This document shows, piece after piece, positions 5,398 to 9,451 of a DNA stretch of 20,858 nt. How positions within the stretch are numbered: position 1 is the first letter of the stretch; each line of letters opens with the position of its first letter. The position numbers and the translations under genes were made by a program. The notes beneath the pieces were generated by a model that was not told where the DNA came from, did no database searches, and saw only the letters and a program-made list of their open reading frames with translations. Origin of the DNA: Candidatus Eiseniibacteriota bacterium (GTDB lineage: Bacteria; JAFGKV01). The stretch covers positions 1 to 20,858 of the forward strand of contig JALOPK010000068.1 of the NCBI GenBank assembly GCA_025453925.1, read 5' to 3'.

Positions 5398-8304
5398 TCA
5401 GGCCTTGGCGATCCCCTCGCGTACCGCGTAGCGGACCAGATCGGCCTGCTTGTGCAGTCCGAGCTTCACCCTGATGTTGTTCTTGTGGACGTGCACCGTG
5501 TTGATCGACACGTCAAGACGTTGGGCGATGCCCTTGCTGGTGAACCCTTCGGCGATAAGCTGAAGCACTTCGCGTTCCCGCACGGTGAGCGTTCCCCGGT
5601 TCCGCGCCTTCGGCGGCGCTTGACGCTTTGCCAGGAATCCCTGCACCACGAACCGGGAGACACCGGGGCTCAGGAAGAACTTGCCTCGATAGACCTCCCG
5701 TACAGCCTGGATGATGTCCCGCATGGCGCTCTCCTTGAGCACGTACCCGTTGATGCCGGATTCGATGGCGCGGGTGACGATTCCCTCGCTGTCATGAATG
5801 CTCAGCATGACAATCTTGGCATCCGGATCCTCTCTTCGCAGCCGTATGGCGGTTTCGATGCCGTTCAAGAGAGGCATCGCCACGTCAAGGAGGTATACGT
5901 CGGCGGCGCGGGACTTCGCGAACTCGATGGCCTCAAAGCCGCTTCCGGCTTCAGCAACCACTTCGATGTCCGAACAGTTCCGGTGCCCGGGTGATGCGAC
6001 GATCTCACACGCACCTTGCACCGACGACGCCATCTCTCTCATGGCCCGGAGCCCCATGTGCGCGGTTGCAGAGGCGGCCAGCGTATCGGCGTCGAACCCT
6101 TTGCCGTTGTCGCGAATGCGCAGCGTGAGACCGTCCGACCCGGCGGTGAGGCGGATGACCACACGTTTCGCCTCGGCATGACGGGCGATGTTGTTGAGCG
6201 CCTCCTGCGCGATCCGGAAGACTACGATGGACTCCTCGGGTCCCACCTCGGCATCGTTGACCCGGATGACGCAGTCGATGCGCGTGGGCGTGCGTTCCAT
6301 GGCCTGTGAGACGAGGAGTTTCAGCGCGGCGGTGAGCCCGAGGATGTCGAGGTCGGGAGGCCGAAGGTCGACCGCCAGGTTCTTGAGGCGCCTGACGACG
6401 CGTTCAAGGACGTACTTTCCCTCCTCCATTGCCTCCAGCCCTCCCCTGAGATCGTTCCGGCGGATTGCCTCCTCGGCGAAATGGAGCTGCGCCGTGAGGC
6501 CGATGGCCATGGAGCCGACCTCGTGATGGAGCACGGCCGACAGGCTCCGCTTCTCCTCCTCTCGAACACCCAGCAGACGCCGCGAGAAGTGCCGCAGGTC
6601 ACGCTCGGATTCCTCCAGCCTCGCGCGGTTCTCGGCCAGCGCCCGTTCCGTCCGACCGCGTACGAGGGCGTTGCCGAACAGCTCACCGGTCAGCCGCAGC
6701 ACGGCGATCTCGTCCGCATCCCACGCGCGACCCGCACGCCTGCATCCGAACGCCAGCACGCCCAGGAGATCCGGACCATCGAACAGGGGGAGCGCCACAA
6801 GTGAATGCCAACCGCGGGTCTGGCATACTTCCCACAACGGTTGCGGAACCGCCTGGACGGACGTCGTCATGATGAGCGGTTCGCCTCGGCGCAGGTTGTC
6901 GAGAGCCCAGCCGAATTCCTCGGTCGAGAGCCCGCAAAGGTCGGGGCCGATTTCGTTGCCCGCGTACCAGCGGTAGGTGCGGATCACGGTGGACAGATCG
7001 GCCGAGAGGAGACCGATCCCGCTGGCATCCGCGCCTGCGTACTCCCCGACGGATCCCAGGGCCCGGTTGATCTCTTCCTCCGCGCTCTCGGAGGAGGCAC
7101 TGACGAAACGGCTCGAAATCCCGCCCACCAGGCGTTCACCGTCCAAGCGGCGGCGGAGGGCCTCCTCGACCCGTGCGCGCTCCCTCAGCTCCGTCTGAAG
7201 GCATGCGTTGGCGTCCCGCATCTCTCTTGTGCGATCCAAAATGGTGGCCTCGCGGTCGGCAAGGGTCTTCCTGAGGATGCTCTGAGCGCTGTCGCGCGCG
7301 GCGCGGGCGCGGAGCGCGCCGATACCGTGGGCGGTGCTGGCTCCGACGTCTTGCAGCAGGCTGATCTCCACCTCATCAAAGGCGTCGGGCTCAGTGGAGT
7401 AGAGGTTGAGCGCCCCGATCGCCCTGCCTCCGTCGAGCAATGGCACGGCGGCGCTGGACGCGTAGCCGCGCCGGATTGCTTCGCCGCGCCAGGGCTGGAA
7501 TCGGGGATCGTCAGCGATGAAGCGTGCAACGGAGGGCTCTCCGTTGCGGATCGCGGTGCCTGTCGGCCCACGGCCCCGGGCATTGTCGGCCCACGAGATC
7601 CCGGTCAGGTCGACATAGCCATCGTCAAGCCCGTGATGGGCCACCGGCCTCACCGACTTGCCGCGGTCGTGTTCGGCGAAGCCGATCCACGCGAGACAGT
7701 AGCCGCCGATCTCGACAGCGATTCGGCACACCTCGCGGAGGAAAGAAGTCTCGTCGCCGGTCCGAGCGGCGGCGGCGTTGCATCCGGACAGCATGTAGAG
7801 GGCCCGGTTGGCGCGGGCCAGCCGTCGTTCGAACTGTTTCCTCGCGTGTATGTCGATGGCGGTCAACACCCACCCGGTCGCGTTTCCATCGGATCCGTCG
7901 CGTCGGTTCACCGACATCTCGACGGATACGTGTTGCCCGTCGCCTCGCACAAGACTGATCTCGATGGCCTCTGCGGGCCCGTCCTGCTCGAACGCCCGAT
8001 GCAGCGTGTCCTCCAGGGTCCCCATGTCGTCGCGGGCGACGAACGGATAAGGAGGCGCGCACCCCACAATCACCTCGGTTCCGGCGAGAAGCGCACGGAA
8101 AGCACGGTTGGCCGCCAGGACGCGGCCGCCCAGGTCTATCGTCATGATACCGCAGGCTGCGGCCTGCAGAATCGCGTTCGCATCATCACCAGGACCAGCG
8201 GAGCCATTCTCCAGAACTCCGGTCATTGGTGCGAGGCGAAGCCGGCTCTCGGCAACACTCATCCTCTGCCCCTTTGAATCACGCACGAACAGAGAAAGTG
8301 CCAC
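5398..8304 (-). CDS. PAS-GAF-GAF sensor histidine kinase fused to a truncated NarL/LuxR-type response regulator
   Basis: The protein is 968 aa with no membrane segment. Approximate order: PAS (40-155), GAF (165-335), coiled coil (340-390), GAF (395-555), coiled coil, HisKA_3 dimerisation/phosphoacceptor region with LHHEVGS (His 593), HATPase_c with EALNNIARHAEA (N box) and DNGKGFD (G1), receiver, LuxR-type HTH (LTVREREVLQLIAEG to the end). Kinases of this NarX/DegS class normally phosphorylate a separate NarL-type regulator. Here the kinase runs straight into the regulator at ASPGH-RNCSDIEVVAEAGSG (about 770-787). The final HATPase strand and roughly the first 30 receiver residues (beta-1, the acidic Asp pair, most of alpha-1) are absent. 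The phosphoacceptor LLDVAMP (Asp 807) and the conserved Lys (YVLKES, 857) remain. The start is GTG 8304 or, equally plausibly, ATG 8262, which is preceded by AAAGGGGC. It lies 89 bp after phoU on the same strand. Confidence 0.85.
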   Translation of the reverse strand: MALSLFVRDSKGQRMSVAESRLRLAPMTGVLENGSAGPGDDANAILQAAACGIMTIDLGGRVLAANRAFRALLAGTEVIVGCAPPYPFVARDDMGTLEDTLHRAFEQDGPAEAIEISLVRGDGQHVSVEMSVNRRDGSDGNATGWVLTAIDIHARKQFERRLARANRALYMLSGCNAAAARTGDETSFLREVCRIAVEIGGYCLAWIGFAEHDRGKSVRPVAHHGLDDGYVDLTGISWADNARGRGPTGTAIRNGEPSVARFIADDPRFQPWRGEAIRRGYASSAAVPLLDGGRAIGALNLYSTEPDAFDEVEISLLQDVGASTAHGIGALRARAARDSAQSILRKTLADREATILDRTREMRDANACLQTELRERARVEEALRRRLDGERLVGGISSRFVSASSESAEEEINRALGSVGEYAGADASGIGLLSADLSTVIRTYRWYAGNEIGPDLCGLSTEEFGWALDNLRRGEPLIMTTSVQAVPQPLWEVCQTRGWHSLVALPLFDGPDLLGVLAFGCRRAGRAWDADEIAVLRLTGELFGNALVRGRTERALAENRARLEESERDLRHFSRRLLGVREEEKRSLSAVLHHEVGSMAIGLTAQLHFAEEAIRRNDLRGGLEAMEEGKYVLERVVRRLKNLAVDLRPPDLDILGLTAALKLLVSQAMERTPTRIDCVIRVNDAEVGPEESIVVFRIAQEALNNIARHAEAKRVVIRLTAGSDGLTLRIRDNGKGFDADTLAASATAHMGLRAMREMASSVQGACEIVASPGHRNCSDIEVVAEAGSGFEAIEFAKSRAADVYLLDVAMPLLNGIETAIRLRREDPDAKIVMLSIHDSEGIVTRAIESGINGYVLKESAMRDIIQAVREVYRGKFFLSPGVSRFVVQGFLAKRQAPPKARNRGTLTVREREVLQLIAEGFTSKGIAQRLDVSINTVHVHKNNIRVKLGLHKQADLVRYAVREGIAKA

Positions 8305-8990: not shown

Positions 8991-9451
8991 GGAATGGTCC
9001 TTTCCCCGTTGCTACTCAGGTAACGGGTGTGGGGGTTCGGGGTTCAGTGCGGCCTCTGAGGTCGGTCGGGCTCCCTCAGGATTCTCGGGGTTGAGAGTAC
9101 GGCCCGCTGTAGCCACGCCGCTCTGCGGCGTGCAGCCCGGCGCAGAGCGCCGGGACTCCAGCCCCGAGGCATTCCCACATGCCGATGACATGTGTACTCT
9201 CAAACAAGGGAGGGAGTTCTGCTGAATCTGTACGCCACCAGGCTGTGCATCAGGCCGGACTCGGCGTGAGGGCCACCGTGCTCGACACCCTTGCAGGGAG
9301 CCGATCGTGCGGCTGTAGACTCCACGGCAACGAACCGGGAAGATCAGAGGCTGGTGCACGCCGTGTTTCGTCCTAACCCCTCCTTCATACTATCCATCTC
9401 TCCAGAAGCCACTGGCCATGATCCCTGGCAGCCTGCGCACCAGACTTCCCC
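8991..9451. other. Spacer between pstB and phoU
   Basis: This 461-bp gap breaks the otherwise compact pst-phoU run. It contains the cloverleaf-like element at 9091-9203. The remaining 9204-9451 shows no supported gene, hairpin-plus-T terminator or clear promoter. Confidence 0.5.
9091..9203. repeat. Cloverleaf-like palindromic element with 10-bp terminal inverted repeats
   Basis: The perfect terminal repeats TTGAGAGTAC (9091-9100) and GTACTCTCAA (9194-9203) enclose three hairpins. Arm A is CACGCCGC-TCT-GCGGCGTG (9114-9132). Arm B is CCCGGCGC-AGA-GCGCCGGG (9136-9154). Arm C is CACATG-(7 nt)-CATGTG (9176-9194, sharing one base with the terminal repeat). The cores of A and B, CGCTCTGCG and CGCAGAGCG, are reverse complements, so their loops could kiss or the two could pair across. 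The architecture fits a small non-autonomous mobile or REP-like element, or a structured RNA segment in the pst-phoU transcript. No second copy was seen in this window. Confidence 0.7.

Follow-up and report, generated by a model that had tools for sequence, protein, structure and literature searches.

A REP dimer nested in a dispersed palindromic repeat between pstB and phoU of a Candidatus Fermentibacteria genome

Bacteria commonly carry small palindromic repeats such as REPs, and the ways in which these spread and combine are poorly understood. In the stretch of DNA analysed here (20,858 nucleotides, henceforth the window), an initial annotation made from the sequence had drawn attention to a gap within the pst-phoU locus holding a 113-bp, cloverleaf-like element, which it read either as a REP/MITE-type insertion or as a structured RNA controlling phoU expression. 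We therefore asked what this element is and whether it belongs to the phosphate locus at all.

The pstB-phoU gap and the repeat within it

Reading of the sequence places phoU and pstB 461 bp apart, as annotated, and Pfam identifies PhoU and the neighbouring ABC ATPase (PstB), behind which lie two permeases, a phosphate-binding-type protein and a porin. Likewise present as described are the perfect 10-bp inverted repeat and the exact reverse complementarity of two hairpin cores, CGCTCTGCG and CGCAGAGCG. The structure is also beyond chance, with folding energies of -55.6 kcal/mol (z -4.1) on the + strand and -62.8 kcal/mol (z -4.8) on the - strand, neither of which was equalled in 200 shuffles. 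Elsewhere in the window, positions 5398-8304 (-) hold one long frame that by eye resembles a sensor kinase joined, abruptly, to a LuxR-type response regulator.

We compared the genome from which the window comes (G000; 3.9 Mb, 502 contigs, 82% complete) with a genome of the same genus (G001) and one of the same family (G002). G000 contains 25 matches to the element, several of them spanning the whole unit, and G001 and G002 contain more, these copies having been gathered by searches and regions so that counts are by pattern and not exhaustive. In 38 more distant genomes we recovered one single 29-base match in one genome, and the named records that carry the outer part of the repeat are Candidatus Fermentibacteria MAGs. 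In aligned copies the shared unit spans roughly 9048-9208, and the flanks vary from copy to copy; the left boundary of the unit is inferred from the end of the sequence common to the copies and from tandem junctions. Of 12 copies in G000, ten fall outside likely ORFs and the other two overlap an ORF end by at most 28 bp. Window 9048-9208 thus belongs, as a single copy, to a dispersed Candidatus Fermentibacteria repeat family made of two nested parts, an outer shell and an inner REP dimer (Table 1). The span originally annotated (9091-9203) is too narrow, as the repeated unit is wider and includes a conserved hairpin (9056-9079) outside that span. No coding role is evident for the composite element, which is most readily interpreted as mobile DNA.

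Table 1. Features of the composite repeat and its left flank in the window
Feature	Positions	Strand	Basis
Heptamers GGGTTCG/GGGTTCA, TCAG-ending, beside shell left end	9034..9047	+	Window sequence; flanks of 54 complete copies
Composite repeat, shell with nested REP dimer	9048..9208	+	Copy alignment, tandem junctions
Shell left hairpin, CTGAGG (9056-9061) / CCTCAG (9074-9079)	9056..9079	+	Copies in G000, G001 and G002
Second shell hairpin, left arm TTGAGAGTAC	9091..9100	+	Window sequence and copies
REP unit a, GTAGCCACGCCGCTCTGCGGCGTG, GTAG tag	9109..9132	+	Window sequence, REP pattern, stem pairs
REP unit b, inverted, GGAGTCCCGGCGCTCTGCGCCGGG, tag GGAG	9136..9159	-	Window sequence, REP pattern, stem pairs, dimer comparison
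Third hairpin, CACATG/CATGTG, probably chance	9176..9194	+	Fold; copy alignment
Shell right end, arm GTACTCTCAA (9194-9203) then ACAAG	9194..9208	+	Copies

The corresponding sites in the relatives bear directly on the proposed role in phoU expression. The phoU-pstB gap, read in the sequence of both relatives, is devoid of the element and measures 16 bp in G001 versus 87 bp in G002, and on this basis the pst-site copy is an insertion particular to the window's lineage. These gaps are not exact empty sites, as the G000 gap holds, besides the shell, 57 bp on the left and 243 bp on the right (9209-9451), which, the heptamer flank excepted, have no match elsewhere in G000. A structured RNA selected at the pst site to control phoU would accord with the strong fold of the - strand, which is the transcribed one, and with the position of the element between two genes of one operon. 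However, given the element-free gaps of both relatives, the copies at many unrelated loci and an Rfam scan that gave no match near the gathering score, we regard this part of the initial annotation as scarcely credible. A secondary effect of the element on the pstB-phoU transcript is nevertheless conceivable: transcription across the gap would run from pstB to phoU and carry the hairpins into the transcript, which they might then attenuate or stabilise, as has been proposed for REPs generally (PMC3733652).

The inner REP dimer and the RAYT genes

The inner part (9109-9159) is a head-to-head, REPIN-like dimer of GTAG-tagged REP hairpins. In G000 dimers the tags lie outside and 3-5 bp separate the units. 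The tag of unit b is GTAG in most other copies and is degenerate in the window copy, which may for this reason be inactive. A search with the pattern of this REP (REP1, GTAGCCNCGNCGCTCTGCGNCGNG; 3 mismatches at most) gave 51 copies in G000 and 38 in G001, versus 1 and 3 control matches, and none in G002, whether inside or outside shells. The two complementary cores that had been interpreted as kissing hairpins are one REP in two orientations, and no kissing interaction is needed to account for them; the third annotated hairpin is not conserved in other copies. As the inverted REP units supply the complementarity and the third hairpin lacks conservation, a kissing-loop or cloverleaf RNA was rejected.

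Compensatory changes, which had been suggested as support for an RNA function, are present both in the REP stems and in the left hairpin of the shell. For the REP stems these were counted in 68 copies at the two base pairs that the search pattern does not fix. The first free pair is G-C in 28 copies, C-G in 20, T-A in 8 and T-G in 7, and the second is A-T in 33, C-G in 22, G-T in 3 and G-C in 2; hence at least 60 of the 68 copies pair at each position through several different base pairs, counts that are not a probability as related copies are not independent. Base pairs were counted directly after RNAalifold had given a weak consensus for the mixed shell alignment, owing to the different loop lengths among shells.

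Genes for RAYT transposases scoring above the NCBIfam cut-off occur in all three genomes, with one at C309 in G000 scoring 108.8 bits against a cut-off of 80. In each of G001 and G002, one RAYT lies amid GTAG repeats of other families, and no RAYT flanked by REP1 itself was found in the three genomes, of which G000 is only 82% complete. One RAYT gene (L036 in G001:C207; L230) has multiple GTAG REPs on either side, drawn from two other families (GTAGGGGCGACCGCC.. and GTAGGGGAGGGCG..), and the pattern for the former family matches 94 times in G001, 3 times in G000 and not in G002. At L038 (G002:C200) the RAYT gene is surrounded by inverted GTAG-GTCGGGTTA repeats, which form a further REP family.

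The shell and its variable cargo

The left hairpin of the shell is conserved across the three genomes, its arms in G002 being CTGATGGCGC/GCGCCATCAG, and the right-end pattern occurs 10 times in G000, 92 in G001 and 30 in G002, versus 1, 1 and 8 times for the reversed pattern. Comparison of 54 complete shells (9, 30 and 15 in the same order) revealed that the loop between the arms of the second hairpin differs markedly in length and content. In G002 it measures 14-28 nt in 13 of 15 shells, mostly 14 nt, and 161 and 223 nt in the other two, the longer of which spans two shells; G002 loops are free of all three REP families that were tested (0.06 matches per set in shuffled loops). In G000 it measures 91-107 nt in eight of nine shells and 326 nt in the remaining one, and all nine contain the REP dimer. 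In G001 the loop ranges from 92 to 342 nt, and the 30 shells comprise 6 with REP1, 9 with only other GTAG REPs and 15 with neither, the last often being filled by 6- and 7-mer simple repeats. Repeats of a CCCGTA-kind 6-mer are also present in the intergenic DNA of G000.

The REP-free shells of G002 point to a shell older than the REP dimer. An alternative is that the shell and dimer constitute one indivisible element, with the REP-free shells of G002 being deletion derivatives, to which the invariable presence of the dimer in complete G000 shells and its single position within them lend some weight. Against this, REP1 is missing from the whole of G002, the G002 loops are uniform, other cargo fills most G001 shells and REP1 can be found away from shells as well (e.g. 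L012 in G000); we accordingly consider such a history improbable.

The outer ends of the shell (TGCGGCC; AACAAG) do not form an inverted repeat and the 10-bp arms are internal, so that the shell has subterminal hairpins at both ends without a terminal inverted repeat. Its left flank is TCAG or CAAG in most copies, but this motif lies inside 7-mer repeats that blur the left boundary, and an exact empty site is absent. Such 7-mer repeats with TCAG in each unit, e.g. (GGGTTCA)n, precede most shells (for example L091, L171, L176, L092; also L011 and L022). As no clear target-site duplication was seen around the copies and the outer ends are not inverted repeats, a terminal-inverted-repeat MITE was rejected. 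The initial proposal of a REP/MITE-type insertion is supported by dispersed, mostly intergenic copies with conserved ends, by GTAG REPs with covarying stems, by RAYT genes and by the element-free gap at the orthologous site of both relatives; the short target duplications envisaged alongside such copies were not clearly evident. The Y1 transposase loci examined include no transposase gene with shell ends, and viral contigs gave no match to the shell pattern. Since the MITE features are lacking and the features of IS200/IS605-type elements are only partly present, the shell is filed under no family. One IS200/IS605-type transposase gene in G000 (L031, G000:C7:438-1109; 76 bits against a cut-off of 55) has a frame that continues into unrelated residues past its conserved part and is therefore probably disrupted.

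We also considered whether the shell could be, instead of a mobile element, a dispersed intrinsic terminator, i.e. a hairpin followed by a T run. A perfect left hairpin with TTTTT behind it does give the G002 shells (L027, L063, L064) a terminator-like look, but the T run is broken in the G000 copies (GGATTCTC in the window), the orientation in the window opposes the pst-phoU transcript, conservation extends equally to the second hairpin and the right end, and the pst-site copy is lineage-specific, all of which renders this explanation highly improbable.

Relation to known repeats and order of events

The dimer resembles GTAG-tagged REP dimers and REPINs (Di Nocera et al. 2013, PMC3733652; Bertels and Rainey 2011, PMC3116915) in its GTAG tag and short G+C-rich hairpin with a covarying stem, in the head-to-head arrangement of two different stems with tags outside and a short spacer, and in being dispersed and mostly intergenic in genomes with RAYT genes. 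Unlike the known GTAG REPs described there, the Candidatus Fermentibacteria REP has its own stem and loop. We file the dimer as a GTAG REP. Nesting of REP dimers in palindromes is already known, namely the GTAG-15 REPs in long palindromes of Anabaena variabilis and the CGTC-1 REPs in 41-bp palindromes of Halothiobacillus neapolitanus, in neither of which were palindromes without REPs found (PMC3733652). The shell is comparable in that a REP dimer lies within a larger conserved palindromic repeat, but it differs from these palindromes in being known without a REP and with other cargo, and in having a second hairpin. The BOX elements of Streptococcus pneumoniae, which are modular repeats with constant ends (PMC3049150), share with the shell the constant ends, variable middle, structure and intergenic, non-coding location, but have no sequence relation to it, and the middle of the shell consists of other mobile or simple repeats rather than copies of one module. 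Non-autonomous IS200/IS605-type elements are similar in their subterminal hairpins, the lack of a terminal inverted repeat and, apparently, a left end after a short motif, whereas for the shell no transposase gene with shell ends was found. A limited literature search found no description of such repeats in the phylum Candidatus Fermentibacteria. What is new is the presence in relatives of REP-free shells and shells with other cargo, which suggests an order of events; as one scaffold is seen REP-free, occupied by a REP dimer or loaded with other cargo among three related genomes, the order of nesting becomes testable.

Within the loop, the dimer holds nearly the same position in G000 and G001 (mostly 7-11 nt before it and 32-35 nt after it), and the spacers following it are related (mean score between the genomes 1.7, versus -3.8 with sd 2.9 for shuffled spacers). 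In light of this shared position and these spacers, the simplest reading is a single insertion of the dimer preceding the split of both species, followed by spread of the composite. We propose that 9048-9208 is very probably a composite mobile repeat insertion, in which a REP dimer entered an older shell, the composite spread and one copy reached the pst locus. TnpA-REP proteins act on a single-stranded GTAG tag with its hairpin and cut nearby (PMC8266576). In this reading, the REP dimer would have been copied as single-stranded hairpin DNA by a RAYT transposase and would have landed once in the loop of the older dispersed palindromic shell; shell and dimer would then have spread as one unit within the genus, with one composite copy landing between pstB and phoU in the window's lineage. 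The shell itself perhaps moved by IS200/IS605-like single-strand transposition, a route we infer from its subterminal hairpins, its left end after TCAG or CAAG and the lack of a terminal inverted repeat. As a more tentative extension, which we hold to be doubtful, the shell could be a single-strand-transposing scaffold whose second hairpin loop serves as a safe harbour for unrelated GTAG REP families and simple repeats. If so, small palindromic elements would spread by riding inside each other, carried by the shell.

At several G001 loci (L114, L129, L201, L202) shells stand in tandem, the right end of one running straight into its neighbour's left end (AACAAG|TCGGGCCTCTGA). Many G001 shells (L114, L154, L161, L194) have beyond their right end another conserved stretch, TGGGGGCCCCGGGC..GCCCGGACGATACA, and a related stretch comes after some G000 shells (L002, L003). 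Many G001 contigs begin within a shell (L070-L072, L074, L076, L077, L079, L080), and hence the repeat seems to break the assembly of that genome.
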